This document shows positions 10,698 through 46,156 of a stretch of DNA of 64,000 bases, piece by piece; the first letter of the stretch is position 1; each line of letters opens with the position of its first letter. This stretch comes from Paraprevotella clara YIT 11840 (GTDB lineage Bacteria > Bacteroidota > Bacteroidia > Bacteroidales > Bacteroidaceae): the NCBI RefSeq assembly GCF_000233955.1, contig NZ_JH376616.1, positions 186,001 to 250,000 of the forward strand, written 5' to 3'. Below the pieces are notes generated by a model. It did no database searches. It saw only the letters and a program-made list of their open reading frames with translations, and was not told the origin of the DNA. The position numbers and the translations under genes are program-made.

Positions 10698-12317
<1,620 letters not shown>

Positions 12318-12359
12318 AAATATTTTTGGAAAACAAAAGCCGAATGGCAAACTATTTGT

Positions 12360-12384
12360 AGGGTATTTAGCGACTAAATACCCT
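12360..12384 (+). terminator. Hairpin between the ABC-F gene and grpE
   Basis: GGGTATTTAG (12361-12370), loop CGA, then CTAAATACCC (12374-12383). An A-T pair extends it to 11-bp arms, and TTTTAAAA follows. It looks like a rho-independent terminator, yet it ends only 16 nt before the grpE ATG, so it may also sit in the grpE leader. Confidence 0.65.
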
Positions 12385-12400
12385 TTTAAAATATTGCATC

Positions 12401-12985
12401 ATGGAAAAAAATAAAGATATGAACGAAGAAGAGTTGAAAGCCCAACAAGAAGAAACCTTGGATAATGTAGCGACCTCACAACTAGACGAAGGCGACAAAG
12501 CTGAAGAACAACCGGCAAAGGAAATGTCCGTGGAAGACAAATTGGCTGCTGCAGAAACCAAAGTGGCAGAACTGCAAGACAAATACCTGCGTCAGGTTGC
12601 CGAATTTGACAATTACCGCAAACGTACCATCAAAGAAAAGGCTGAATTGATTTTGAACGGGGCGGAAAAAACCATCACAGCCATACTTCCTATATTGGAC
12701 GACATGGAACGTGCATTGAAGAATATGGACAAGATGGAAGACGTGGCTGCCGTAAAAGAAGGCGTGGACTTGATATTCCAGAAATTCGTGAAAATCTTGG
12801 GCGAACAGGGGGTCAAGAAAATAGAGACCGAAAATGCCGATTTCAATACGGATTTGCATGAGGCTATTGCCCAAGTGCCGGCTCCTTCGGACGAAATGAA
12901 AGGTAAAATTATCGACTGCGTCAAAACAGGCTATACTTTAAATGAAAAGGTGATTCGCCACTCTCAAGTGGCCGTAGGACTTTAA
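12401..12985 (+). CDS. grpE: Nucleotide exchange factor GrpE
   Basis: 194 residues. It has an acidic, Glu/Gln-rich disordered N terminus (1-55), a long coiled coil (about 55-125 with LQDKYLRQVAEFDNYRKRT, the GrpE hallmark) and a C-terminal beta domain (LHEAIAQVPAP, ending HSQVAVGL). It dimerises and drives ADP release from DnaK. It is followed 13 bp later by dnaJ. dnaK itself is not in the window. Confidence 0.97.
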   Translation: MEKNKDMNEEELKAQQEETLDNVATSQLDEGDKAEEQPAKEMSVEDKLAAAETKVAELQDKYLRQVAEFDNYRKRTIKEKAELILNGAEKTITAILPILDDMERALKNMDKMEDVAAVKEGVDLIFQKFVKILGEQGVKKIETENADFNTDLHEAIAQVPAPSDEMKGKIIDCVKTGYTLNEKVIRHSQVAVGL

Positions 12986-32525: not shown

Positions 32526-32533
32526 TATCTTTG
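32526..32533 (+). promoter_or_regulatory. -7 box deciding the start of the phosphatidyltransferase gene
   Basis: TATCTTTG, an exact -7 match. It overlaps an in-frame TTG at 32531, so translation cannot begin there and the ATG at 32573 is preferred. Confidence 0.6.
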
Positions 32534-32572
32534 CAAGACATTCATATTTTTTACACAGATAAAAATGCAACA

Positions 32573-33265
32573 ATGGGAAAAGAATCAGCAGAAAGAATTC
32601 AAACCTCCATTCTTAGCAAAGCAGAGAAAAAAGCACTTGTGTGGTTAGCTCAGAGACAACCCGAATGGATGACCTCGGACACATTGACTTATATCGGCGT
32701 ATTGGGTACAGTGGTTTATGCCATAGGAGGCTGGTTGTCGAATACAGATATAAGATATTTGTGGCTTTCGTCGTTCGGACTGGTACTTCATTGGTACGGC
32801 GACAGCCTGGACGGCACACTGGCACGCTTCCGTAATACCCAACGGCCGATATACGGCTTTTTCATCGACCATACGCTCGACGCTGTCACCACCTGCCTCA
32901 TCTTCCTCGGCGCCGGTCTCTCTCCTATGTTTCGTATGGATGTGGCGTTAGCAGCATTAGCCGGTTATTTGAGCCTCTCCATATACACTTACGTCTGCAC
33001 CATCGTCAAAGAAGAATTCTGTCTGACGTACGGCAAACTCGGTCCTACCGAATTCCGTTTACTGCTCATACTTTTAAACATACTCTACATGTACACATCA
33101 TGGTCCGAATGGCGTATCAACTGGTATGGTCTTGAATGGGGCATTTTCGATATCTTAGGAATCATCATTACCATTATCCTTTTCAGTATCTACATTGCCC
33201 AATTCATCAAAGACCGTGCTGCATTTGCCAAGCAAGACCCTCTCAAACCCCACAACAAACGATAA
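32573..33265 (+). CDS. CDP-alcohol phosphatidyltransferase family membrane protein
   Basis: 230 residues with about six membrane helices. The family motif is complete as D-x2-DG-x2-AR-x9-G-x3-D-x3-D (beginning DSLDGTLAR and ending GFFIDHTLD), which binds CDP and the catalytic metal. It should join a CDP-activated lipid to an alcohol or polyol acceptor in the inner membrane. The acceptor cannot be read from the sequence, so phosphatidylglycerophosphate, inositol or other products are all possible. It converges on the acyl-lipid operon starting at 33364. Confidence 0.88.
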   Translation: MGKESAERIQTSILSKAEKKALVWLAQRQPEWMTSDTLTYIGVLGTVVYAIGGWLSNTDIRYLWLSSFGLVLHWYGDSLDGTLARFRNTQRPIYGFFIDHTLDAVTTCLIFLGAGLSPMFRMDVALAALAGYLSLSIYTYVCTIVKEEFCLTYGKLGPTEFRLLLILLNILYMYTSWSEWRINWYGLEWGIFDILGIIITIILFSIYIAQFIKDRAAFAKQDPLKPHNKR

Positions 33266-33363: not shown

Positions 33364-35922
33364 TCAAAACGAGAGACTCATCGTACAACGTATGCCTCTC
33401 TTTTGTATTCCCGAATGATCGCGATAGTTCAAACGCCATACATAATCAAGGCGCATGAACTTGAAAATGTTTTCGATACCGACACTGGCTTCCATGTAAG
33501 GCGCACGCCCCATCACGCCGGAACCAACCGGAAAAGCATACAACCCCTCTCCCGTTTTCATCGGATTGTTCTTGTCCGTCAAATGCCCCCACAAACCCCT
33601 GAAGCAAAGCACTTCCCTCCATTTTAATTTTTTGATGAGAGGAAGGCGGTTCAATATCAACCCGTTCATATAATACGTCACATCCCACGAGATGTATTCA
33701 TCATTGATGAACTCTATGGCATTCATGTTCGTATAAGCTTCCGGCTGAATCGTATAAGTCAGATTGGCATTCGGCAAAATCAACAAGGGATAAGGCACTT
33801 TGTTCCACACCTTTCCCGCCTTACCTATCACATCTACAAAACCAAAAGCCGAAAACCACAAACGTTTCTGTATGCCTAACTCCGTACGATGGTAATCATA
33901 TGAAGAACCTAAAAAACCCTTTTTCGACATGGTATGTTCCAGATTAAAAATCAAGGCATCATACGTAATCGGTATTCGTTCATCATGGGTTTGATAAAAC
34001 TTCTCATTCTTACCATAACGGAATTTCAGTTCCAGTTCCGTCATGTCATACTTTCTCACAGGCGTCACGGCTCCGTCGGCACCTATACGGTCGAACTGGG
34101 CATAATCCGTAGCATATTCGCGGAAGTTACGAATGACAGCGTTGTACGATATACCGTTATAATGCTCGCGGCTGTACGTCAATTCGGCATTACGCAAATA
34201 CGTTGCCCGCGTGTCTTTCTTCCGCTTGATAGCCAAAAGCACATTATCCTTACTGGTATACATGTACTGCTGCCCCAGTTTGTTGATGTCATACATGTAT
34301 TCGAAACGAAGCGAGTGCATGGGAAATTCTTTTCGGTACGTCTTGCGGTCGTTGAACGAATATTCCACCAAAGCATCATACTTCATCTTGTTATCCCTCG
34401 TTCCGTATGCCGCATACCCCTCTACGAACCAATTCTTACTCAACTGAGGGGTCGTAGCCCCTCCCACACGGAAACGAGCTCCTTCGATGGCATTACCATT
34501 GATCGTGGAATTCATCGGGCCAAACTCAAACTTGTTCTTGTCCGGCACCTTACTTGTAGGAATATACCCCGACACCAAAACAGAAACCACTTTCTCCGTC
34601 ACGGCAAAAATAGGCACAGAGCGTAATTTTGCCATCAGTTTCTCCATAGAGTTCGGATTCCTTTGGACAGCCTCTTGCGGACGAACTTCTTCCCAAAAAT
34701 CCTCCGTACGGCTGTAAGCCTCTTTTTGTGTAATAACCGGTGCGCTCTCCTTGAATATTTGCTCTTGCCTGCCTTCCGGTACCTCAAACGACTGATGGGT
34801 ATATACATTCAAACGCCTCGCATAAAAACCTTTCGACTTCTCGCTCAACTTAAAATCCACGCTGATGTCGTCTTTCGTAATCACACGGGTACTGTCCGGT
34901 CCGCGTTCAAAGTCTTGTTCGATAGTCATTCTGGAAATAAAATTCAGATTGATATCCTGTGCCACGTTGAGTATGGCTTTACGGACAAAATAAGCAGAGT
35001 CCAACGTAACATACAAGTGCCCAGTAAAACCAAACGACTCGGACGCGAAAGGAACGAAAGCCAAGTCCGCACACCTGTCACCCTCCACATCCAATGTATC
35101 GAGCAAGTAATATTTATAAAAGGTCGGCCCAATAGAAGAAAGAGGACTCACAAAACGTTGCAAAAACAAAGGTATATTGTTTTGATAAATATCGACTTCA
35201 CGAAAGACTTCATTCAGAAACTGCTGTACCCCGTCACGCGAAAAGACCTCATCCACTCCGGACGATTTGTTTCCCTTCACCACAGTCTTCTCCGACCTCG
35301 GGTCGCGACGGTAATACACGGTCTGCGCTTTTTCCTTTACCGAAATCGGAAGAATCGTCGTACCGACATCCAACGTATCTACAAATTCTGACAGGAAATC
35401 GAACTTCCCTGTTTTTCCGTCCTTCTTCGGTTTCGGCTTATAATCGTTTTTCGCTATCACAATCTTTTCATACTGATCGTAACGGAAGTAATCGCGGTTA
35501 CGTGGGTCGTTATCGTCTCTTCGAGCAATAACCTGCCTTACGAAAGCCACAGCCGGGTTTTCTTTCCTCCTATACTTCTCCCTTCTCGGCTTTACCGTCA
35601 CTTCGTGCAAGGCTATCTCACTTTCCCGCATTCGGATCTTTAAATTATTGGTTCTTCCCGGTAACACCTTCAGGTGTTGGGTGTCGTATCCCATATAAAC
35701 GACTTCCAGCACTTTTCCCGGCGTACGGGTGGAAAGAGAAAAGTGCCCGCCGATATCGGTCGTAGTACCGATATTCGTCCCTTTAAACACAATCGTGACA
35801 GAAGGCAGGGCTTCTCCCGTAACCGAATCGGTAACAATGCCTTTTACTATCGTATGCTGACCGCAAGCCATACCCACCCCAAACGTCAGGCACAGCCACA
35901 TGAAAATAATTCTTTTTCCCAT
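33364..35922 (-). CDS. DUF5686 outer-membrane protein with carboxypeptidase-regulatory N-terminal domain
   Basis: 852 residues with a signal peptide (MGKRIIFMWLCLTFGVGMACG). Residues about 24-110 form a carboxypeptidase-D regulatory-like domain (VKGIVTDSVTGEALPSVTI, GTNIGTTTDIGGHFSLS), as seen in TonB-linked proteins. The rest matches the DUF5686 type. The C-terminal 400 residues have beta-strand patterns with many Tyr and Arg and end in ...CTMSLSF, with a terminal Phe as in outer-membrane barrels. It is the last gene of the lipid-like operon, 54 bp after the flippase-like gene, and could help place or hold the operon product in the outer membrane. That role is inference. Confidence 0.85.
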   Translation of the reverse strand: MGKRIIFMWLCLTFGVGMACGQHTIVKGIVTDSVTGEALPSVTIVFKGTNIGTTTDIGGHFSLSTRTPGKVLEVVYMGYDTQHLKVLPGRTNNLKIRMRESEIALHEVTVKPRREKYRRKENPAVAFVRQVIARRDDNDPRNRDYFRYDQYEKIVIAKNDYKPKPKKDGKTGKFDFLSEFVDTLDVGTTILPISVKEKAQTVYYRRDPRSEKTVVKGNKSSGVDEVFSRDGVQQFLNEVFREVDIYQNNIPLFLQRFVSPLSSIGPTFYKYYLLDTLDVEGDRCADLAFVPFASESFGFTGHLYVTLDSAYFVRKAILNVAQDINLNFISRMTIEQDFERGPDSTRVITKDDISVDFKLSEKSKGFYARRLNVYTHQSFEVPEGRQEQIFKESAPVITQKEAYSRTEDFWEEVRPQEAVQRNPNSMEKLMAKLRSVPIFAVTEKVVSVLVSGYIPTSKVPDKNKFEFGPMNSTINGNAIEGARFRVGGATTPQLSKNWFVEGYAAYGTRDNKMKYDALVEYSFNDRKTYRKEFPMHSLRFEYMYDINKLGQQYMYTSKDNVLLAIKRKKDTRATYLRNAELTYSREHYNGISYNAVIRNFREYATDYAQFDRIGADGAVTPVRKYDMTELELKFRYGKNEKFYQTHDERIPITYDALIFNLEHTMSKKGFLGSSYDYHRTELGIQKRLWFSAFGFVDVIGKAGKVWNKVPYPLLILPNANLTYTIQPEAYTNMNAIEFINDEYISWDVTYYMNGLILNRLPLIKKLKWREVLCFRGLWGHLTDKNNPMKTGEGLYAFPVGSGVMGRAPYMEASVGIENIFKFMRLDYVWRLNYRDHSGIQKRGIRCTMSLSF

Positions 35923-35976
35923 AAACCTAATACCTTATCTTAAACCTTATCTCTTTGCCCGACTATACCTGTCCCG

Positions 35977-37038
35977 TCATCCGGTATGCTCCTCATTCCC
36001 GTCCGGCACGGACACTCCGGTACCCACCTTCATCAACAACAACCCGACAGAAGCCCAGAACAATTCCCGCACCCGGCTGATAATACTTACAAACATACCG
36101 ATGCCTTCCCCCATTCCCATTTGAGCCACAGACAGGGCAAAGCCCCCCTCGCGCCCTCCCAACTGCAACGGAAGGAATCCCAGTATATTGGCGAAGAGCG
36201 AAGTAAAAGCTAAAATCAGAAAGGAATGGAAAAACGTCAACGTATATCCGCTCACTCCTCCTCCGCCATCTATACCAAACAAGACCAACATGAAAAAAAT
36301 CTCAAAACTCTGGCAGAAGCGCCCGATATATTCCAAAGCGAAACTTCCAAAGAAAGAACGCTTGTTCTGATTCTGTAATTCAGCGATTTGCCGGTCTATC
36401 TTTTGCAAATCCTCCAAATGGCGCTCCATAAAACGTCCTCCCCAACCACGTAAACCGGGTATCTTACTCAACAAACGAACCAATTTAACCGTCATTCCGT
36501 TTTTGTATCCTTTAATGAAAAGATAGATACCTCCCCAACAGAAAGCAGCAATGAGTCCCAATACAATCCCCATTCCGCTATTTATCGGCACATCCCCCAT
36601 CAAAGCCATGACACAATAAACCACGACCCCCGTTACCCAAAACCAGAAATGGGCAAAAATGTGCATCATGGCAAAAAGTATCACGGTGGAAGTAGCCCGT
36701 TGCACACCGATGTATTTTGAAAGCTCCATAATACGGTAAGCCTCTCCGCCCAGCAGTCCTACCGGAGTGGCATAGTTCAACGCAAAACCGGAAACCGTCA
36801 ATTTCAACAACTGCATGAAGCCCACTGTGCAAGGCCCTCCTCCCTGGATAATGACCCTCCACGCCCATGCGTTCATGAGATAAAGCACACACCACAGCCC
36901 CAATATGGCCGCCAGCCAATAACCGGCCTTCGTAATGTATTCCCACAATTCGGTAAGGCTTACGTCGAAAGAGAAAAACATTACGACGACGGCTATCATG
37001 CCTATTCCGAAAAACAAATTGTTCAATCGTTTTCTCAT
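35977..37038 (-). CDS. Flippase-like integral membrane protein (LPG synthase TM / UPF0104 type)
   Basis: 353 residues with about eight membrane helices, of the lysylphosphatidylglycerol synthase transmembrane family. Recognisable parts are the N-terminal helix (NNLFFGIGMIAVVVMFFSF), ALNYATPVGLLGGEAYR at about 92-108 and LPLQLGGREGGFALS near the C terminus. Relatives include the MprF flippase part and proteins thought to move lipids across the membrane. It lies between the thioesterase and DUF5686 genes, 18 bp after the former, so translocation of the operon's lipid product is a reasonable guess. Confidence 0.9.
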   Translation of the reverse strand: MRKRLNNLFFGIGMIAVVVMFFSFDVSLTELWEYITKAGYWLAAILGLWCVLYLMNAWAWRVIIQGGGPCTVGFMQLLKLTVSGFALNYATPVGLLGGEAYRIMELSKYIGVQRATSTVILFAMMHIFAHFWFWVTGVVVYCVMALMGDVPINSGMGIVLGLIAAFCWGGIYLFIKGYKNGMTVKLVRLLSKIPGLRGWGGRFMERHLEDLQKIDRQIAELQNQNKRSFFGSFALEYIGRFCQSFEIFFMLVLFGIDGGGGVSGYTLTFFHSFLILAFTSLFANILGFLPLQLGGREGGFALSVAQMGMGEGIGMFVSIISRVRELFWASVGLLLMKVGTGVSVPDGNEEHTG

Positions 37039-37056
37039 ACCTGTCAGTTCTTCGTC

Positions 37057-37500
37057 TTAGGGATGATTATCGTTCTGTTCCCTATATCTCGCCTGCCACT
37101 CCTTATAGTAATCGGGCGAGTCCACCATAAGCATACCTTCCGTATCGATGAACAACTGCACCGTACTTCCTTCCGCGCACAAGATTCCATCCGCCTCACG
37201 GTAAACTTTATATTCGAAATCCAACCGTGCACCGGGACGGTATACATAACGTGTATGCACCACCGCCACATCGTCCAGCACCAATGGAGCATAGAACCTC
37301 AGGTGCAGGTCGTAAATCGGAGCGTAGATACCGGACCGCTGCATGTCGGCATACCCTATGCCCGGATAATGCCGGCCGAAAGACTCCCGTCCATCCTCAA
37401 AGTAAGTGACGTAAGCCCCATGCCAGACCCTCCGCATCGAATCAATCTCATTGAACTTCACCCTTACGCGGCAAACATCTTCAAGTCCGTCCATCAGCAT
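37057..37500 (-). CDS. Hotdog-fold acyl thioesterase (4HBT/YbgC type)
   Basis: 147 residues. The active-site region (VRVKFNEIDSMRRVWHGAYVT) has the expected Asp at about residue 18-20, followed by the helix carrying YFEDGRESF, as in 4-hydroxybenzoyl-CoA thioesterase relatives. It probably releases the acyl chain from the carrier protein or from CoA. It lies 18 bp after the ketoreductase and 18 bp before the flippase-like gene, in line with coordinated expression. Confidence 0.88.
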   Translation of the reverse strand: MLMDGLEDVCRVRVKFNEIDSMRRVWHGAYVTYFEDGRESFGRHYPGIGYADMQRSGIYAPIYDLHLRFYAPLVLDDVAVVHTRYVYRPGARLDFEYKVYREADGILCAEGSTVQLFIDTEGMLMVDSPDYYKEWQARYREQNDNHP

Positions 37501-37518
37501 AAGAAATATAGAAACCTA

Positions 37519-38247
37519 TTACGTATAAAGACCTCCGTTAACGGCTATCACTTCGCCGGTAATATAACCGGCATCCCGGGAAACCAGAAAACCGACAAGG
37601 CCCGCCACTTCTTCCGGCATCCCGAAACGGCCCACCGGAATGGTTTTCTTTAGAGCGGCCTCATCCAGCCCCTCCACCATGTCCGTCCGGATAAAACCGG
37701 GTGCCACGGCATTCACCGTCACATTTTTCCGCGCCACCTCCTGAGCCAAAGCCTTTGTAGCTGCAATGATTCCTCCCTTTGCCGCAGAATAGTTCGCCTG
37801 CCCCGGCATACCTCTCAATCCGCTCACGCTCGCCATGTTGACGATACGCCCGAACTTATGTACCAACATAGGCTGCAGCAAAGGTTGCGTCACATTGTAA
37901 AATCCACCCAAGCCGGTACCCAACACGCTATCCCAATCTTCCCCAGGCATGAACACCATCAGGTTGTCGCGACGCACACCCGCATTGTTCACCAGCACTT
38001 CTATGTATTCTTCCGGATGCTTCTCCATCCAAGCCTCAAGCACGGCAGAGACCTGCACACGGTTTCCTACATCGAATTTCAGGACTTCACCGTCCTGCCC
38101 TTCTTGACGTACCAACTCCAACGTGTGCTCTGCCTCATCGGTCCGGTTCACACAGTTGACCAACACGTGGTAGCCCATACGGGCCAGTCTCACACAGACA
38201 GCCCGCCCTATTCCGCGGCTGCCCCCTGTCACTAAAGCATATTTCAT
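37519..38247 (-). CDS. 3-oxoacyl-ACP reductase (FabG-like SDR) of the acyl operon
   Basis: 242 residues. It has the NADPH-binding TGGSRGIGRAV at 7-17, NNAGVRRD at 87-94, and the catalytic triad S140, Y153 and K157 (YSAAK). The fourth catalytic residue, the Asn of the usual TNL motif, is Gly here (TGLGGF at 111-116), an unusual change. It should reduce beta-keto groups on the acyl carrier protein. Its start overlaps the oxidoreductase stop by 4 bp. A C-terminal AVNGGLYT matches the FabG end. Confidence 0.92.
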   Translation of the reverse strand: MKYALVTGGSRGIGRAVCVRLARMGYHVLVNCVNRTDEAEHTLELVRQEGQDGEVLKFDVGNRVQVSAVLEAWMEKHPEEYIEVLVNNAGVRRDNLMVFMPGEDWDSVLGTGLGGFYNVTQPLLQPMLVHKFGRIVNMASVSGLRGMPGQANYSAAKGGIIAATKALAQEVARKNVTVNAVAPGFIRTDMVEGLDEAALKKTIPVGRFGMPEEVAGLVGFLVSRDAGYITGEVIAVNGGLYT

Positions 38248-39737
38248 ATTTCCACTCCTTTCTTATTCATTAAGATATTCCATATCTGCTCACGTCCCAA
38301 AACTTCCGCACAAGTGAACAGCGCGGTCATCGTCACACCGTACACCCCGTGCAACATCAGGTTTTGTCCGGTGAGGAACAGGTTCGGCACTGGTGTGCGG
38401 ACGGACAGCAAGGCCGCCAACGGATTCCTGTAATCCTTGCGTAAACCGTAGGCCGTCCCCTCCGGGGCACCGATATAGTCACGGTAAGTAAGTGGGGTAC
38501 TGGCATAGCATTCAGCCACCCAACCACGTAGCCCGGGCACCACCCGTTCCGCCAACCGGATACACTCGTCAGCCACACACCTTTTCATGGCCTCATAATC
38601 CTCGCCACGCCCTCCGACTTTCGTATTACTCCAAGGCATACATCTCTCCCATGGCATAGGAGTCAACAAATCCACTTGGGAAGTAAAACGGCTCCCGTCT
38701 TCGGGAACACGACAAGCCACCATCACTCCGGACACCGGCTCCTCTTCTTCGTAGAAAGTCCAAACACCAGGATGTGCATAAACATACCGGTTATAATTGA
38801 AATACTCCAATGCCCGAGGTTTCATCCGGAGCGACACGGTGAACATGCCGAATGTGTTCGGCAACCCGGCCATACGATGACGGTAAGCATTCTTCATCCT
38901 CTCGCTCTGCTTTACCAACTTGCATGTCTGCCCCGGATGTACGTCACTGATAAAAACCGCTCCTTCGTACACTTCACCGTCCCGGCAGACCGCCGCAGAC
39001 AACCTTCCGCACTTTTCTACCAATTCGACCACCTCAGCCCCGCAAACCACCTGGCCACCTTGCTGCCCGATTCCCCTCACCAAGCGGTCTGTTATCAATG
39101 CTCCGTCACCCTTCAACCGCCAACTGCTTTCAATAAAACTGCTTTGGCCATGAAGGAAAGTGAAAAGCGGAAGCGAATCGCGCCGAAGCTCCATCTTCAA
39201 GGAAGTCCCACTAAGCACGTCCACCAGCAACGGATTGCGGAAAGTCTCATTCAAATATTGCCAAGCACTCGTTTCAACGAGACGTGAAGGCCATACGGTC
39301 TTTCCGGCACGTGGATTCAGCAAATCCAGTTCCTGTTCCGACATACGCCTCAATAAGGCAGCATACCGTCCCAAAGCCGGACGTTCGGAAGGAAATTCAG
39401 CAGCCAACGTAGCGGTAAAATCTTCATACCCTTGCGCAAATGCAAAGGTACGCTGCCCTATCGTCACCTTGTCAAACTCATGGTCAAGGCGTTGCCAAGG
39501 CAGTTGCATCAATCCCAAGTAAGTGAAAACGGTATGCAGCGGCTGTCCTTCGTCCAGTCCTCCCACATAATGGAAACCTGTATCGTAAGCCAATCCCCGT
39601 CTCCGGTAAGACTGGAGGCATCCACCGGGCTGCCGGCCTTGTTCGAGGACGAGCACCCTCAAACCGGCACGCGAAAGGATATATGCACACTCCAATCCTC
39701 CCAATCCACTACCTATGACCACCACATCGTACTTCAT
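38244..39737 (-). CDS. CrtI/RetSat-like FAD-dependent oxidoreductase
   Basis: 497 residues. The N-terminal dinucleotide fold (GSGLGGLECAYILSRAG, residues 8-24) is followed by LEQGRQPGGCLQSY and DTGFHYVGG. The C terminus has LFLTGQNLMLHGVYGVTMTA, the FAD-closing segment of phytoene desaturases and retinol saturases. In this operon it could desaturate, saturate or isomerise a polyene or acyl chain. No carotenoid gene (crtB, crtE) is visible, so a carotenoid substrate is unlikely. It overlaps the ketoreductase by 4 bp and follows the second hotdog gene by 7 bp. Confidence 0.9.
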   Translation of the reverse strand: MKYDVVVIGSGLGGLECAYILSRAGLRVLVLEQGRQPGGCLQSYRRRGLAYDTGFHYVGGLDEGQPLHTVFTYLGLMQLPWQRLDHEFDKVTIGQRTFAFAQGYEDFTATLAAEFPSERPALGRYAALLRRMSEQELDLLNPRAGKTVWPSRLVETSAWQYLNETFRNPLLVDVLSGTSLKMELRRDSLPLFTFLHGQSSFIESSWRLKGDGALITDRLVRGIGQQGGQVVCGAEVVELVEKCGRLSAAVCRDGEVYEGAVFISDVHPGQTCKLVKQSERMKNAYRHRMAGLPNTFGMFTVSLRMKPRALEYFNYNRYVYAHPGVWTFYEEEEPVSGVMVACRVPEDGSRFTSQVDLLTPMPWERCMPWSNTKVGGRGEDYEAMKRCVADECIRLAERVVPGLRGWVAECYASTPLTYRDYIGAPEGTAYGLRKDYRNPLAALLSVRTPVPNLFLTGQNLMLHGVYGVTMTALFTCAEVLGREQIWNILMNKKGVEI

Positions 39738-39744
39738 TGCCCAT

Positions 39745-40113
39745 TCAAACGACCGTCATCAATCCCTTATATTCCATATACACCTGTTCCCCGTCGGCTA
39801 CCCGTGCCCTGACCTCCAACCCGTCTTCCACAGGAGAGAGCCTCACCGCCACGTCCAGTTCCGTACAAGTGCAGGGTGAAACCACAGCCGTCAAACGGCA
39901 TAGCTTAATCGTGCGGATGTGCAATGCCTTGCCTGACACTTCCATCACACACTCCTTCACCATTTGGATATTGAATGCCCCGGGACACACCGGATGTCCC
40001 GGAAAATGTCCGCGATAAACTTCGCAATCCGGCAGGAGCACAATACGGAACACCGTACAGCCGTCCGAAACGCGCCGGGTCAACACCTTATAATAATGAT
40101 CCTTCAGCCACAT
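39745..40113 (-). CDS. FabZ/FabA-like hotdog dehydratase, short form
   Basis: 122 residues. It keeps the FabZ hallmark HFPGHPVCPG at about residues 36-45 with the catalytic His, followed by a helix (NIQMVKECVM) carrying a Glu in the place of the catalytic acid. It should dehydrate 3-hydroxyacyl-ACP. Its first 26 bp overlap the end of the preceding hotdog gene, so the two are translationally coupled and may form a heterodimer, like the ApeI/ApeP pair in aryl polyene clusters. Confidence 0.82.
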   Translation of the reverse strand: MWLKDHYYKVLTRRVSDGCTVFRIVLLPDCEVYRGHFPGHPVCPGAFNIQMVKECVMEVSGKALHIRTIKLCRLTAVVSPCTCTELDVAVRLSPVEDGLEVRARVADGEQVYMEYKGLMTVV

Positions 40114-40519
40114 ATATCTTCATTTGCGTACAAGCCAGCGTTTCTTCCCCTACGCAGGTCTCACCTGTCAATAAGGACACGCCACCCACTTCCGGCCCGA
40201 AGGTCACCGTGGTCTGTAGTTCTTCTCCCACCCGGGGGCAACGAAAACAACGAAACTTCTTCACTTCGCCGATATAACCTACCGGCGGTTCCGAAGCGCC
40301 TGCCTCCACGGCCTTGTAACCGGCAAAGGCGGAAGCCGACTGGGCGATATGCTCGATAAGCCCCGGCTCTGCCAACAGGCCGTCGTCACCCACAAAACTA
40401 TTGTCGCGGCGCACCGTGAGCTGCGTCCGGGCCATATCGCCCTCCACACCGACCAATGCGTCTACGAGCAAAATCGGTTCACGTTGGGGAATCAGGCTTT
40501 TAATGTCATAATTTGTCAT
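40088..40519 (-). CDS. ApeP-like hotdog dehydratase
   Basis: 143 residues. The N-terminal LIPQREPILLVD is typical of FabZ and ApeP relatives. The central helix (EPGLIEHIAQSASAFAGY) takes the position of the catalytic helix, with Glu then His at LIEHIAQ. The FPG motif of FabZ is absent, so this is the divergent partner type. It is the second dehydratase of the operon and overlaps both neighbours (4 bp with the ACP gene, 26 bp with the short hotdog gene). Confidence 0.82.
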   Translation of the reverse strand: MTNYDIKSLIPQREPILLVDALVGVEGDMARTQLTVRRDNSFVGDDGLLAEPGLIEHIAQSASAFAGYKAVEAGASEPPVGYIGEVKKFRCFRCPRVGEELQTTVTFGPEVGGVSLLTGETCVGEETLACTQMKIYVAEGSLL

Positions 40520-40764
40520 TCCTGCTTCGCGTGCGATTCGATGTAATCGTAAAGGTTGTCGAACGTCTTGATTTCCCGCAAGTCCGCCACGGGAATTTTT
40601 ACCTTATAAGTCTGTTGGATGATGGCGACAAGGTCCACCAGGCTGAGGCTGTCCAAGGAAAGCGTGTCCCTTACATTCGCGTCGGGGACAAACTCTTCTG
40701 CGTCTACTTCAAACTCTTCTGCCAATAAGGCATTTACTTTCTCTACGATGTCTTCACGTGTCAT
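40516..40764 (-). CDS. Acyl carrier protein of the acyl operon
   Basis: 82 residues, acidic and helical, with the phosphopantetheine attachment motif DSLSLVDL at residues 38-45 (Ser39). The sequence around it (TLSLDSLSLVDLVAII) is that of a dedicated carrier protein. It differs from the housekeeping AcpP motif (usually DSLDTVEL) in having SLV after Ser-Leu. It lies between the ketosynthase (24 bp) and the first dehydratase (4-bp overlap). Confidence 0.93.
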   Translation of the reverse strand: MTREDIVEKVNALLAEEFEVDAEEFVPDANVRDTLSLDSLSLVDLVAIIQQTYKVKIPVADLREIKTFDNLYDYIESHAKQE

Positions 40765-40788
40765 AACTGTTTGTTTTTATCGTGTTTA

Positions 40789-42009
40789 TTATATGTTTTT
40801 TACAATAAGGGTGGAGTTCGTCCCACCGAAACCGAAAGAATTGGAAAGGAACATGTCAAAATGCGCCTCCCGTGTCTGCGGTATGATGTTCAGGCAGGCC
40901 GTATCTTCATCGGGATGCTCGAAATTGATGTTGCCGGCAATGAAGCCGTTTTTCATCATCAGCGTCGAATAAATCAACTCGCTTGCACCGGCCATCCACA
41001 TTTCGTGCCCGGTCTGACTCTTGGTAGAAGTGACTGGAACCTTGTAGTCCCCGAACACCTGTGCTATCGCCTGCGCCTCGCGGCTGTCGCCGATGCGAGT
41101 GGATGTGGCATGGGCGTTGATGTAGCCGATTTGCGACGGTGTCACACCGGCATGTTGCAGACAAAGCTCCAACGACCGCGCCGGCCCTGCCACGTTGGGC
41201 GTGGAGATGTGGTCGCCGTTTCCGGAAAAGCCCCATCCCACAATCTCACACAAGATGGGGGCACCGCGCTTCAAAGCATGTTCGTAACCCTCGACCACCA
41301 CCGTGGCCGCGCCTCCTCCGGGTACCAGTCCGTCGCGGTCGCGGTCGAACGGGCGGCTGGCCTTCTCCGGCTCATCCTCACGCACGGAGAACGACTGAAT
41401 CCCATCGAAAGATGCCACACCGTAGAGGTTTGCCTCTTGCGCACCGCCACACACGACACAATCCTGCATCCCGTTACGGACCAAAAGGTAGGCCAACCCC
41501 ACAGCATGGGAACCCGAAGCACATGCAGCCGAGGCCGTCAGGTTGATGCCGCGCAAATGGAACAAGCAAGCCAAATTCATCGTCACGGTGGAGTTCATCG
41601 ACTGGAAGATGGCCCCACTACCGCAAGCCGCTGTGTCTTTAAACTCACGGAACTTGTCAAGCGCACGCATGGTCGCTTCGGCCACGGAGTCGTTTCCATA
41701 AATGACCCCGACTTCGTGCCGGTCGATATAATCTTGCTCCAAACGGGCATGCTCAAGGGCCGCACGCGTAGCCATATAGGCATACTGGGCTTCCTCCGGC
41801 ATGAACTGACGCAGATTCCGTGACACAAAGGGTTTCAAGTCAGGCTGTCCTACGGCAGCACACAAAGCGGAACGAAAACCCGCATCCTTGCGCTCCCGGC
41901 TGAATACGATACCGCTTTTCCCGGCATAGAGCGCATCGCGTACCTCGTCCAATGTCTTCCCGAGGCACGACCATATCCCCATTCCCGTTATTACAACTCT
42001 ATTTTCCAT
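40789..42009 (-). CDS. Beta-ketoacyl-ACP synthase (KAS II/FabF-like) of the acyl operon
   Basis: 406 residues of the thiolase-fold condensing enzymes. The catalytic residues are intact: Cys163 in AACASGSHA, His300 in NAHATST and Lys330/His335 in TKSQTGHEMW. It should condense malonyl-ACP with an acyl starter. Only one ketosynthase is present, with no separate chain-length factor that would carry a Gln in place of Cys, so this is not the two-subunit polyene synthase type. It starts 10 bp after the GNAT-like gene. Confidence 0.93.
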   Translation of the reverse strand: MENRVVITGMGIWSCLGKTLDEVRDALYAGKSGIVFSRERKDAGFRSALCAAVGQPDLKPFVSRNLRQFMPEEAQYAYMATRAALEHARLEQDYIDRHEVGVIYGNDSVAEATMRALDKFREFKDTAACGSGAIFQSMNSTVTMNLACLFHLRGINLTASAACASGSHAVGLAYLLVRNGMQDCVVCGGAQEANLYGVASFDGIQSFSVREDEPEKASRPFDRDRDGLVPGGGAATVVVEGYEHALKRGAPILCEIVGWGFSGNGDHISTPNVAGPARSLELCLQHAGVTPSQIGYINAHATSTRIGDSREAQAIAQVFGDYKVPVTSTKSQTGHEMWMAGASELIYSTLMMKNGFIAGNINFEHPDEDTACLNIIPQTREAHFDMFLSNSFGFGGTNSTLIVKNI

Positions 42010-42019
42010 AATCCTGTTT

Positions 42020-43156
42020 CTATAAAATCTTTTTGTAACATCTCCTACGCTTGGTGAAAGTGGGATGCAAGGGCTTCCATTGGCTCAGCTCCTTCACGTT
42101 GTCTTCCAACTGCGGCCCGGTCTCGGCATATCGGAACCCCAACCGGTTATACACGGGAATCAGGTCGTTGAAGAATAAGGCATTGACTCCCAAACCTTGG
42201 TAATCCGGACGAACGGCCACCAGAAACATCTCGGCTTTCTCTTCCCTTCTCCATTTCAACGCACGAAGCAAATAGAACCACCCCAACGGCCACAGGCGCC
42301 CTTTCGACTTACGCAAGGCCTGCGACAGGCTGGGCATCGTAATGGCCACGCCCACCAATTCACCTTTTTCATTCTCCACCACCGACAGCATCCGTAAATC
42401 CAACAAGGGCAAATAACGTTTAAGATAGGTATCTATCTGCCTGTCCGATAACTCCGTATATCCGAAAAGCGGAGAGTAGGACACATTCAGCAAGTCAAAC
42501 ACCTTCCTGCCATATCCCCGACGAGAAATATCGGCCCTCGTCAATTTCCTGCTTCGCAGTCCAAACATTTCCTTGGAAAGTTCCGCAACCCTGGCATATT
42601 TGTCAGGCACATCCTTCGGCACCTCAATACTCACCTGTACCCAATCCACCTCCTTCTCGTACCCTAATGCCTCCAAATGTTCCGAATAGTAAGGGGGATT
42701 ATATATCGTTACCATTGACCCTATCCGGTCAAAGTCCTCCACGAGCATACCTTCCTTGTCGAAATCAAAAATCCCCATAGGACCTTGGATGCAATCCATC
42801 CCTCGCTCGCGCCCCCAACGCTCCACGGCCTTCAACAAAGCCGCAGACACGTCCTTGTCGTCAATGAACTCGACGAAACCGAAACGGACGTTCTTCGTGT
42901 GCCATTTCTTATTCGCACGATGGTTGATAATGCCGACGATACGCCCCACCGCATTTCCGTGCTCGTCGTAAGCGATGAAAGGCTGGATGTCCGAAAAGTC
43001 CAACCCGGCATTTTTACGGGGGTCGAACGTCTCACGGATATCCGTCTCCATATCAGGAACATAATAAGGACTTCCGGCATACAATCTTTCCGTAAGTCCC
43101 ACGAAATCATCCATTTCGCGTTCCGTATTCACTTCTTTTACATTTACTTTCCTCAT
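42020..43156 (-). CDS. GNAT-like N-acyltransferase family protein, first gene of the acyl operon
   Basis: 378 residues from the ATG at 43156. The frame extends to a TTG at 43195, which is less likely. The N-terminal half carries a GNAT-like region (about 20-150, with GNAVGRIVGIINHRAN). The C-terminal half repeats it (ELVGVAITMPSL, FLVAVRPDYQGLGVNALFFNDL), with the Q-x-x-G-x-G/A-like acyl-CoA-binding turn in YQGLGV. It may transfer an acyl group to an amine, and so could attach the chain made by the downstream enzymes. The substrate is not known. A promoter box lies at 43227-43234. Confidence 0.82.
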   Translation of the reverse strand: MRKVNVKEVNTEREMDDFVGLTERLYAGSPYYVPDMETDIRETFDPRKNAGLDFSDIQPFIAYDEHGNAVGRIVGIINHRANKKWHTKNVRFGFVEFIDDKDVSAALLKAVERWGRERGMDCIQGPMGIFDFDKEGMLVEDFDRIGSMVTIYNPPYYSEHLEALGYEKEVDWVQVSIEVPKDVPDKYARVAELSKEMFGLRSRKLTRADISRRGYGRKVFDLLNVSYSPLFGYTELSDRQIDTYLKRYLPLLDLRMLSVVENEKGELVGVAITMPSLSQALRKSKGRLWPLGWFYLLRALKWRREEKAEMFLVAVRPDYQGLGVNALFFNDLIPVYNRLGFRYAETGPQLEDNVKELSQWKPLHPTFTKRRRCYKKIL

Positions 43157-44236: not shown

Positions 44237-44674
44237 TCAGACAAGCGCCATCAAAGCCTCATCGTCCAATACGCCGAGTTGGTGCACGCGGATAACTTCT
44301 TCCGTCCGCACGGCATCATCCGTGCGGAAAACCAAAATACCCTTTCCGCCCAAGAGGAAAGAATAAAGATAGGATATGCCTATCCCCTCGCCCGTAATCA
44401 CACGTACGGCATCGGCCGCACGCCCGGGACGGTTGTCCAACGTGATGGCAAACACTTCCGACATGCTGGCCGAAATGCCTGCCGCCCGCAACACTTCGTA
44501 TGCCCGTGTAGGTTCGGAACAGATAATACGGTAGATGCCATATTCCACGGTGTCGGATATGGTGGAAGCAATCAACTGGACACCGGCTTCTTTGAACAAG
44601 TCCAACACGCGTAACAACGTACCCGACTTGTTCTCTACAAAAATAGATATTTGATGTACTGTCATATTTTTCAT
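44237..44674 (-). CDS. Tandem ACT-domain protein
   Basis: 145 residues made of two ACT modules, about 4-70 (HQISIFVENKSGTLLRVLDLF) and 72-145 (VFAITLDNRPGRAADAVRVI). ACT domains bind amino acids or similar small ligands and regulate partner enzymes. It follows the phenylacetate-CoA ligase gene by 2 bp, an arrangement common in Bacteroidetes, so it probably senses aromatic or branched amino acids for that enzyme. Confidence 0.9.
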   Translation of the reverse strand: MKNMTVHQISIFVENKSGTLLRVLDLFKEAGVQLIASTISDTVEYGIYRIICSEPTRAYEVLRAAGISASMSEVFAITLDNRPGRAADAVRVITGEGIGISYLYSFLLGGKGILVFRTDDAVRTEEVIRVHQLGVLDDEALMALV

Positions 44675-44676
44675 TT

Positions 44677-45996
44677 TTATATCAACGTTCTACGTAAATC
44701 CCTTACCCTTACGGCCTTGCCTTCCTGTTTGGGCAAAGTCCCCTTGGGTACCAGTCTCACCACGGGCGTCAGAAGGATTTCATCTTTCAGTTGGCGTGTG
44801 ATTTCACGGGTCAGCGCCTGCAAGCGCGGATAGTCGTCGCTGAATTCCTTCAACTCCACTTCCACCGTCATCAAGTCGTTGGCCTCTTCGTTGGTCAGGG
44901 TTATCAAATAGTCCGTCCCGAGTTCTTCAAACTGCATCAATACCGTTTCAATCTGAATGGGGAAGATGTTGACCCCTTTCAGAATCATCATGTCGTCGCT
45001 CCGTCCCTTCATGCGGTCGAGCCGCTTATGGTGACGTCCGCACGGACAGTCGCCCGGTAAAATACGGGTCAAATCGCGGGTGCGGTAGCGCAACAACGGC
45101 ATAGCTTCGCGGTTGATGGTGGTCAGCACCAGTTCGCCCACCTCGCCGTCGGGCACGGGTTCCAACGTCTGCGGATCTACAATCTCCACGATATAATAAT
45201 CTTCCCAAATGTGCATCCCGTTCTGTTCCGTACACTCGAAGGCCACACCCGGCCCACACATCTCGGACATGCCGAATGAGTTATAAGCTTTCACGCCCAA
45301 CATCTTCTCGATTTTGCGCCTTTGTTCCTCCGAATGCGGTTCCGCCCCGATGACCAAAGTACGGAGCTTCGTGTCGCGCACAGGGTCTATCCCCATTTCC
45401 TCCATCACCTCATGGATACGGCTGGCGTAACTGGGGATGGCATGCAAGGCCGTCGTGCCGAAATCCGTAATGAACTTAATCTGCCGCTTGGTGTTGCCCG
45501 CAGCCGCCGGCACCGTCAGCATGCCGAGACGTTCGGCTCCGTATTGGAAGCCCAGTCCGCCCGTAAACATGCCGTACCCCGACGAGTTCTGAAAGACATC
45601 GCCCCGCCTCAGGCCGACCATGTACAAGCAACGTGCCACGGCATTGGCCCACTCGTCCAAATCCTTCTGCGTGTGCAGGATGACCGTAGGGGTGCCCGTC
45701 GTGCCACTGGAGGAATGCAGGCGCACCACTTCGCTCATCGGCACCGCGGCAAGCCCGAACGGGTAATTGTCGCGCAAATCCTGTTTCGTAGTAAAAGGAA
45801 TCTTACGCAAGTCGTCCAACGAACGTATGTCTTCAGGAGACAAATGAGCCTCGGCAAACCGTTTCTGATAAAAAGGAGATTTCATACAACGACGGACCGT
45901 ACGGAGCAAACGCTCGAATTGCAACGCCTCGATTTCCGTCCGCGTCAAAGTTTCTAATTCTTCATGCAAATACATTTCCATTTGTGTTTTAATCAT
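44677..45996 (-). CDS. paaK: Phenylacetate-CoA ligase
   Basis: 439 residues of the adenylate-forming PaaK type. The phosphate-binding loop is SSSGTTGTPTVI, the aromatic/adenine motif YNSFGMSEMCGPG, and the C-terminal GRSDDMMILKGVNIFP is characteristic of PaaK. It makes phenylacetyl-CoA or a related aryl-CoA. In this phylum it usually accompanies indolepyruvate oxidoreductase (iorAB), which is not in the window. The -7 box TAACTTTG ends only 8 bp before the first ATG, so the transcript may be nearly leaderless or translation may begin at the Met codons at residues 6 or 8. Confidence 0.93.
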   Translation of the reverse strand: MIKTQMEMYLHEELETLTRTEIEALQFERLLRTVRRCMKSPFYQKRFAEAHLSPEDIRSLDDLRKIPFTTKQDLRDNYPFGLAAVPMSEVVRLHSSSGTTGTPTVILHTQKDLDEWANAVARCLYMVGLRRGDVFQNSSGYGMFTGGLGFQYGAERLGMLTVPAAAGNTKRQIKFITDFGTTALHAIPSYASRIHEVMEEMGIDPVRDTKLRTLVIGAEPHSEEQRRKIEKMLGVKAYNSFGMSEMCGPGVAFECTEQNGMHIWEDYYIVEIVDPQTLEPVPDGEVGELVLTTINREAMPLLRYRTRDLTRILPGDCPCGRHHKRLDRMKGRSDDMMILKGVNIFPIQIETVLMQFEELGTDYLITLTNEEANDLMTVEVELKEFSDDYPRLQALTREITRQLKDEILLTPVVRLVPKGTLPKQEGKAVRVRDLRRTLI

Positions 45997-46012: not shown

Positions 46013-46090
46013 TAAAAAACTATCGCAAAAAGAGGGCATTTCCTTTTATTTTTTCACGGCATCCTCCATATCTTCCTCCCGGAAGGACAT

Positions 46091-46150
46091 AAAAAAAGGG
46101 CTCCGCTGAGCCCAACCTTTGTTAACCTTAAATCTAATACTATGAAAAAC
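46091..46150 (-). ncRNA. Predicted small RNA of about 60 nt
   Basis: A consensus promoter (46157-46187) and an intrinsic terminator (46098-46113 plus a seven-base run) on the minus strand frame a transcript of about 60 nt. It contains an AT-rich stretch (ATTAGATTTAAGGTTAACAA) but no reading frame. It is independent of both flanking protein genes, which have their own promoters. Short paralogous RNAs of this build are known in Bacteroides, though I cannot confirm membership of a family. Confidence 0.65.
46098..46113 (-). terminator. Intrinsic terminator of the predicted small RNA
   Basis: On the minus strand GGGCTC-AGCG-GAGCCC is followed by seven T (46091-46097), a textbook rho-independent terminator. 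No protein gene ends here, which is why a small RNA is proposed. Confidence 0.8.
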
Positions 46151-46156
46151 ACAGTA

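Follow-up and report, generated by a model that had tools for sequence, protein, structure and literature searches.

A conserved ten-gene operon of Paraprevotella clara, a reduced relative of the flexirubin and aryl-polyene clusters that probably builds an envelope lipid

The 64,000 nucleotides of Paraprevotella clara YIT 11840 analyzed here, called the window in the following (RefSeq assembly GCF_000233955.1, contig NZ_JH376616.1, positions 186,001 to 250,000), contain a run of ten co-directed genes on the minus strand, at positions 33364–43156 of the window, with a GNAT gene first and a DUF5686 gene last according to the list of open reading frames and to family searches. This gene set is real and conserved, and very probably an operon, and its core, judged from the sequences, is a direct relative and reduced offshoot of the type II polyketide synthase clusters that make flexirubins and aryl polyenes, which are yellow-orange polyene pigments. 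We lean slightly toward the reading that this reduced synthase makes a short carrier-bound chain, which is then placed in the cell envelope. The genes of the operon and their convergent neighbor are the following.

42020..43156, minus strand: tandem-GNAT putative acyltransferase, which opens the operon (Pfam Acetyltransf_1, 27.9 bits, cut-off 20.7)
40789..42009, minus strand: ketosynthase (KS), FlxC type, FabB-like, active site intact (family hidden Markov model, HMM, and residues C163/H300/H335)
40516..40764, minus strand: dedicated acyl carrier protein (ACP) with DSL site (PF00550, 49.3 bits)
40088..40519, minus strand: hotdog protein HD1, ApeP-like half, with the catalytic Glu retained and the catalytic His gone (residue columns)
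39745..40113, minus strand: hotdog protein HD2, ApeI-like half, with the catalytic His retained and the Glu variable (residue columns, match to 6qsr_A)
38244..39737, minus strand: flavin adenine dinucleotide (FAD)-dependent oxidoreductase of the CrtI/CrtD/CrtISO superfamily, hereafter CrtI-like (best NCBIfam family CrtD, 116.7 bits, far below the cut-off of 549.7)
37519..38247, minus strand: ketoreductase (KR) of the flexirubin FlxB family (NF053542 FlxB, 400.8 bits, cut-off 340)
37057..37500, minus strand: 4HBT thioesterase (TE), ApeK-like (PF13279, 50.4 bits)
35977..37038, minus strand: LPG_synthase_TM (LPG_TM) or HpnL-like membrane protein, candidate flippase (PF03706, 72.2 bits; HpnL, 50.2 bits, below cut-off)
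33364..35922, minus strand: DUF5686 outer-membrane protein, CarboxypepD_reg-like N-terminal domain and predicted Omp85-like barrel (PF18939, 122.8 bits)
32531..33265, plus strand: CDP-alcohol phosphatidyltransferase, convergent neighbor and probable eleventh gene (PF01066, 23.1 bits, cut-off 22)

From GNAT to DUF5686 the intergenic spacings are 10, 24, −4, −26, 7, −4, 18, 18, and 54 bp. An earlier, sequence-only reading of this DNA had listed ten genes of these identities on one strand, with gaps between 7 and 54 bp long and three overlaps (4, 26, and 4 bp), and the open reading frames, the family searches, and the recomputed spacing all agree with it. It had also seen an intact Cys-His-His triad in the KS, and Cys163, His300, and His335 are invariant in an alignment of 12 sequences. 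The DSL motif of the ACP and the TGGSRGIG, NNAG, and YSAAK motifs of the KR are equally intact. Both hotdog proteins score below the Pfam cut-offs. The KR lies in the same operon as the KS without being adjacent to it.

The ten genes are complete and in the same order in the window genome, in four more genomes of its genus (loci L033–L036), and in three genomes of another genus of the same family (L143–L145), where a CDP-alcohol transferase gene is inserted before DUF5686. Because complete sets in the same order recur in the genus and in a second genus, the arrangement is not due to chance. Within the genus, the FAD oxidoreductase has a true ortholog in 5 of 18 genomes, and all five keep the ten genes in order. 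Gene order and conservation give good support to the proposal of the earlier reading that a single operon serves to assemble a carrier-bound acyl chain and to export it. With the FAD enzyme as query, 21 of 41 genomes (one of them the window genome) have a match at E ≤ 0.001. The order has 115 of 393 genomes with a match at E ≤ 1e-30, a count that takes in paralogs from large clusters, and the family has 40 of 301 at E ≤ 1e-100; no relative was found among the viral contigs searched with it.

In one genome of the genus, G017, the operon has at its side a larger cluster of polyene type, with multiple KSs and two CrtI-like enzymes (L044 and L045), and this coexistence counts in favor of our reading. 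The opposite view would be that the operon is the decaying remnant of a flexirubin-type cluster, with no coherent pathway left. Many components of the full clusters are indeed missing, and dehydratases have been lost in some relatives, but the motifs checked are intact, gene order is kept in all five carriers of the genus, and the operon coexists with a larger cluster in G017, so that decay appears highly improbable.

The CDP-alcohol phosphatidyltransferase probably belongs to the gene set as well. In the window it is convergent and 98 bp away from the operon, and it counts as a probable eleventh member because in L034–L036 it is co-directed and directly downstream. The window enzyme has the complete signature DxxDGxxAR-x(7-9)-GxxxDxxxD. 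Related clusters have a second type of CDP-alcohol transferase, of about 330 aa (L080, positions 11669–12664, and similar loci). All 11 of its members lack the fourth Asp of the signature and have Ser or Gly in its place, a weak twelfth match of a different type being left out of this count.

The cut-off of the FlxB model is exceeded in 20 of 247 Bacteroidota genomes, among them the window genome, and the model finds some match in all 247. An HMM of the KS family, comprising 51 window-type members (three of them paralogs from large clusters), gives 596–674 bits to the 13 KSs that adjoin FlxB in full flexirubin or aryl-polyene-type clusters. Its scores are 380 bits for FabB, 352 for FabF, and 303 for ApeR of Escherichia coli, 321 for the FabF-like KS of the window genome itself, 316 for the ApeR-type KS of Acinetobacter baumannii, and at most 339 for the remaining cluster KSs. 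In the KS tree the window type groups with the 13 FlxB-adjoining KSs, and the nearest outside reference is E. coli FabB; NCBIfam and PDB rankings also find the KS to be FabB-like. Three rows of this tree labeled as small-type (L176–L178) are large-cluster paralogs and were omitted from the comparison of residues, in which the window KS has Leu228 and His267 in common with ApeR (this His is also found in FabF) and does not share Tyr135. Full clusters on plasmids of Aureispira anguillae and Persicobacter psychrovividus combine an ammonia lyase, FabG, a KS of the window type (58% and 54.5% identity, respectively), an ACP, a thioesterase, further KSs, a chain-length factor, and LolA. Among the other proteins, TE, MMPL, and LolA have family HMMs whose matches in E. 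coli are ApeK, ApeM, and ApeL (E = 1.2e-28 for TE against ApeK), and that of the ACP narrowly prefers E. coli ApeF (50.9) over AcpP (45.3). The label FlxC type for the KS is inferred from the consecutive letters FlxB and FlxC in the Chitinophaga pinensis cluster (PMC3992019).

Compared with the flexirubin clusters of C. pinensis (flxA–flxY) and Flavobacterium johnsoniae, the operon shares the FlxB-type KR, a KS of the type that adjoins it there, an ACP adjacent to this KS, a FabZ-like hotdog protein, and the 4HBT thioesterase, a likeness drawn through the NCBI FlxB model and the Aureispira and Persicobacter clusters rather than through the sequences of these two species. Some full flexirubin-type clusters also have an FAD oxidoreductase, as the operon does. 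Unlike the flexirubin clusters, the operon lacks the tyrosine ammonia lyase, the coenzyme A (CoA) ligase, the further KSs and chain-length factor, the second ACP, LolA, and MMPL, and it adds the tandem GNAT, the LPG_TM protein, DUF5686, and the CDP-alcohol transferase. With the aryl polyene (APE) clusters of proteobacteria (E. coli CFT073, Xenorhabdus doucetiae, A. baumannii) it shares an ApeQ-like KR, an ApeP/ApeI-like split dehydratase, an ApeK-like TE, and an ApeF-like ACP, and relatives of the operon also carry an ApeM-like MMPL and an ApeL-like LolA; it differs in having no ApeO–ApeC, ApeH ligase, second ACP, or ApeN, and the tree places its KS away from ApeR. The sequence-only reading, which had set the operon apart from the aryl polyene clusters, was right about the missing parts and overlooked the direct kinship in FlxB-type KR, KS type, split dehydratase, and ApeK-like TE.

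Several of these parts were also looked for in the whole assembly, which is in 165 contigs. Its PF00109 ketosynthases number two, that of the operon and one that is FabF-like. The searches gave no chain-length factor (PF13723; 1 of 14 control genomes positive, Bacteroides ihuae), no aromatic ammonia lyase (PF00221; 5 of 14 controls positive), and no LolA, either by family search (6 of 14 controls positive) or with the LolA of the clusters as query, and the cluster MMPL retrieved just two stretches of 21 bits, in proteins of more than 1000 residues. Because these searches were empty, it appears that the assembled genome has neither a chain-length factor nor a starter derived from tyrosine. No second ACP and no enoyl reductase is found in the operon, and none of its family matches is named DarA or DarB, for which the genome at large was not searched. 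For the operon itself, the earlier reading had correctly stated that it has no chain-length factor, ammonia lyase, AMP ligase, or MMPL.

These absences bear on whether this could be a true aryl-polyene operon that receives its starter from elsewhere, with the single KS elongating throughout. The lineage is common with that of flexirubin clusters, and 1.1 kb upstream of the operon the minus strand also encodes a PaaK-like ligase (44677–45996) and an ACT-domain-like protein (44237–44674), both names coming from a reading of the open reading frames and not from a family search. But the ligase adjoins the operon in L033 and not in L034–L036, none is found among the ten genes (ligases were not searched for elsewhere in the genome), the assembly has no aromatic ammonia lyase, and neither a second ACP in the operon nor a chain-length factor in the genome is there to be used. 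This explanation seems to us quite unlikely. As no chain-length factor, aryl starter supply, or MMPL/LolA was found, we do not file the operon among the aryl-polyene clusters, although its chemistry probably follows theirs.

The variation of the gene set was surveyed in homologous clusters, starting from 148 loci (68 annotated fetched loci and 80 named loci, the best 80 of 575). A KS above 500 bits is present in 128 of these; 115 remained after dereplication of the KS at 98% identity, and 84 had at least 9.5 kb downstream, the window itself being outside this set. Presences are lower bounds, as divergent or fragmented small open reading frames may escape. Among the 49 clusters with GNAT, ACP and the CrtI-like enzyme are found in all 49, HD1 in 40, DUF5686 in 35, KR in 33, HD2, MMPL, and LolA in 27 each, TE in 24, LPG_TM in 6, and PlsC in 1; a CDP-alcohol transferase of one type occurs in 4 and of the other in 12, the latter including one weak match of 29 bits that is of a different type (L219). 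The 35 clusters without GNAT have the CrtI-like enzyme in 32, ACP in 30, HD1 in 25, HD2 and KR in 23 each, MMPL in 19, LolA in 18, TE in 17, PlsC in 16, DUF5686 in 2, and LPG_TM in none. Overall, MMPL is present in 46 and LolA in 45 of the 84, about half of the homologous clusters, a point that the earlier reading had missed.

Three associations stand out in Fisher tests, which take no account of kinship. GNAT and PlsC nearly exclude each other (PlsC in 1/49 versus 16/35, p = 8e-7), and the tandem-GNAT gene occupies the position that PlsC has in the clusters of other families. GNAT and DUF5686 are associated (35/49 versus 2/35, p = 5e-10). Within the GNAT group, LPG_TM and MMPL are mutually exclusive, MMPL being found in 0 of 6 clusters with LPG_TM versus 27 of 43 without (p = 0.005). 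In a tree of the joined KS, CrtI-like, GNAT, and ACP proteins (52 tips, including the window and two outgroup loci), the presence of LPG_TM changes 3 times and the export label 11 times, whereas 500 shuffles gave 20 changes on average and never fewer than 15. Some nodes of this tree are weak, one of those separating LPG_TM tips being at 0.82. A clean swap of modules that would include the CDP-alcohol transferase was considered and rejected: MMPL is also present in 5 of the 16 clusters with LPG_TM or a CDP-alcohol transferase, and the presence of the latter changes 11 times on the tree.

The two hotdog proteins show a complementary pattern of catalytic residues. In HD1 (47 matches minus one fragment of 45 residues), the column of FabZ Glu68 is Glu in 46 of 46 and that of FabZ His54 is without His in 46 of 46 (a gap in 10). 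In HD2 (48 matches minus one open reading frame of 234 residues and three large-cluster paralogs), all 44 sequences have the His, and the position of the Glu is taken by Glu in 19, Gln in 21, Gly in 3, and Leu in 1. The top PDB match of the HD2 profile is 6qsr_A (E = 1.3e-9), from a structure that we take to be the ApeI:ApeP complex. The family models place ApeP just over FabZ for HD1 (39.4 versus 36.4 bits) and ApeI over FabZ for HD2 (36.4 versus 30.9 bits). This suggests that HD1 and HD2 form an ApeP/ApeI-like heterodimer with one shared active site, to which HD1 would give the Glu (Glu56) and HD2 the His (His36).

Structures were predicted for the proteins at the two ends of the operon. The AlphaFold model of the GNAT protein has a mean predicted local distance difference test score (pLDDT) of 86 and a tandem-GNAT fold over its length. 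Its nearest structures are tandem acetyltransferases (7q3a, Z = 23.2, root-mean-square deviation [rmsd] 3.5 over 305 residues), with N-myristoyltransferases at Z of about 15, which makes acyl transfer possible. A sequence search of the PDB with this protein found only weak matches, to octaprenyl-diphosphate synthase chains, and was set aside. The DUF5686 model (mean pLDDT 80, predicted template modeling score 0.69) has a C-terminal barrel at residues ~458–851, and all 50 matches listed for it are chains of BamA, TamA, SAM, or TOC complexes at Z of about 18–21 (best, Sam50 9nk7_B, Z = 20.7, rmsd 4.2 over 309 residues; TamA 8us1 and BamA 8bnz, both 18.8). DUF5686 is thus predicted to hold a barrel like those of the Omp85 superfamily (BamA, TamA, Sam50), from which it differs by its N-terminal CarboxypepD_reg domain and by the lack of any match to the Omp85 Pfam families at E up to 10. 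The candidate flippase matches HpnL of the hopanoid systems, and the MMPL of relatives matches HpnN; both likenesses are at family level and below cut-off, and none of the genes of the operon is assigned to hopanoid synthesis.

From these enzyme families we infer a substrate, a chain, an acceptor, and a transport route. The KS would extend an acetyl or acyl, non-aryl starter with malonyl-ACP on the dedicated ACP, and the KR and HD1:HD2 would reduce and dehydrate the product to a short polyenoyl-ACP, with up to about four C=C bonds by analogy with ApeR, which on its own makes polyenes with as many as four double bonds (PMC8358021). As the operon has no enoyl reductase, the double bonds would be kept, and the CrtI-like enzyme may isomerize, desaturate, or saturate one of them. 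The chain would then either be passed by the tandem GNAT to an acceptor with an amine or be freed by the TE; the LPG_TM protein would flip the lipid across the inner membrane, the CDP-alcohol transferase possibly providing a head group, and the Omp85-like barrel of DUF5686 would place or anchor it in the outer membrane. For the product, left open by the earlier reading, a short non-aryl unsaturated chain on some acceptor is the best proposal.

Several observations weigh against this scheme. The FlxB model is over cut-off in 1 of the 14 control genomes too, and the KR family model nearly ties ApeQ with FabG (275.0 versus 272.9). The KS tree puts ApeR (and ApeO) apart from the window type, and the KS family HMM ranks FabB and FabF above E. 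coli ApeR. The Tyr135 with which ApeR stacks aryl groups is Ile in the window KS and Ile, Leu, or Val in the FlxB-adjoining KSs; as a mark of aryl substrates this residue was rejected, since the FlxB-adjoining KSs lack it as well. According to PMC8253772, an E. coli apeR mutant retains the main APE lipid peak, and ApeR would accordingly not be the main elongator in that species; the window KS, with no partner KS besides FabF, would have more elongation to do than ApeR. The HD1 profile prefers FabZ (3.3e-11) over 6qsr_B (6.2e-8), and plain BLAST ranks FabZ above ApeP or ApeI for both hotdog proteins, so that their assignment rests on the residue pattern and not on scores. The nearest structural matches of the GNAT protein are acetyltransferases. 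The Fisher tests ignore relatedness, GNAT being largely a family-level trait, and 5 clusters have both a CDP-alcohol transferase and MMPL. Finally, inspection of the gap itself in the 46 GNAT-type clusters where the ACP and the next gene could be placed shows that in 8 the ACP is directly followed by the CrtI-like enzyme or MMPL, with no room for a dehydratase (L160, L161, L192, L198, L200, L208, L212, and L216), and that 13 have room for HD1 only, without HD2. As some relatives have lost it, a dehydratase of one's own is not needed everywhere, which weakens the word polyene.

This last point favors another product, a fatty acid that carries a modification without being polyunsaturated (beta-hydroxy, beta-keto, or monoenoic), made by housekeeping enzymes acting on the dedicated ACP and then N- or O-acylated, the polyketide ancestry saying little about it. 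Such a product would fit the universal presence of KS, ACP, and CrtI-like enzyme in the 49 GNAT-type clusters beside the less regular HD1, KR, and HD2, the clusters without a dehydratase, and the FabB-like rankings of the KS. Yet the window operon retains the KR and both dehydratase halves, with the split site intact, its KS and KR belong with their polyene-cluster counterparts, and the best NCBIfam families of the FAD enzyme, though below cut-off, are carotenoid desaturases and isomerases. We regard the modified fatty acid as somewhat unlikely. The short unsaturated chain can also be given a more specific form, a so far undescribed class of envelope lipid in this Bacteroidales family: a short non-aryl polyenoyl chain from a flexirubin-lineage synthase without chain-length factor, N-acylated on an amine by the tandem GNAT, flipped by LPG_TM, and inserted by DUF5686 as a dedicated Omp85-type lipid insertase, in replacement of the PlsC/MMPL/LolA route. 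In all these details the proposal is tentative and, taken as a whole, unlikely.

Elsewhere in the window, the only Rfam match above gathering score is the FopS small RNA family of Bacteroidetes (RF04319, 71.6 bits, positions 46088–46152, minus strand). Promoter-like sites are rarer than in shuffled sequences (7 versus 13.4) and terminator-like sites slightly more common (18 versus 12.7, standard deviation 3.4). The Bacteroides-type promoter pattern, scanned across the window, has 5 matches versus 2.2 expected, one of them within the CrtI-like gene and none upstream of the operon.

No description of this reduced cluster was recognized by title or abstract among the papers listed, which is weak evidence, subscription papers being outside this scope, and no paper on DUF5686 was found in the literature searched. 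PMC3992019 describes the export of flexirubin as unknown. In conclusion, the operon, as far as its genes tell, probably builds an envelope lipid that has not yet been described. Its lineage offers natural swaps of parts, with the aryl starter and chain-length factor gone, GNAT at the position of PlsC, and no MMPL where LPG_TM is present, and these swaps make the acceptor and the export route testable by comparison. DUF5686 gains a predicted Omp85-like barrel and the context of a pathway. According to record titles, many named relatives are gut and rumen Bacteroidales, so that a surface lipid of this kind could bear on contact with the host.

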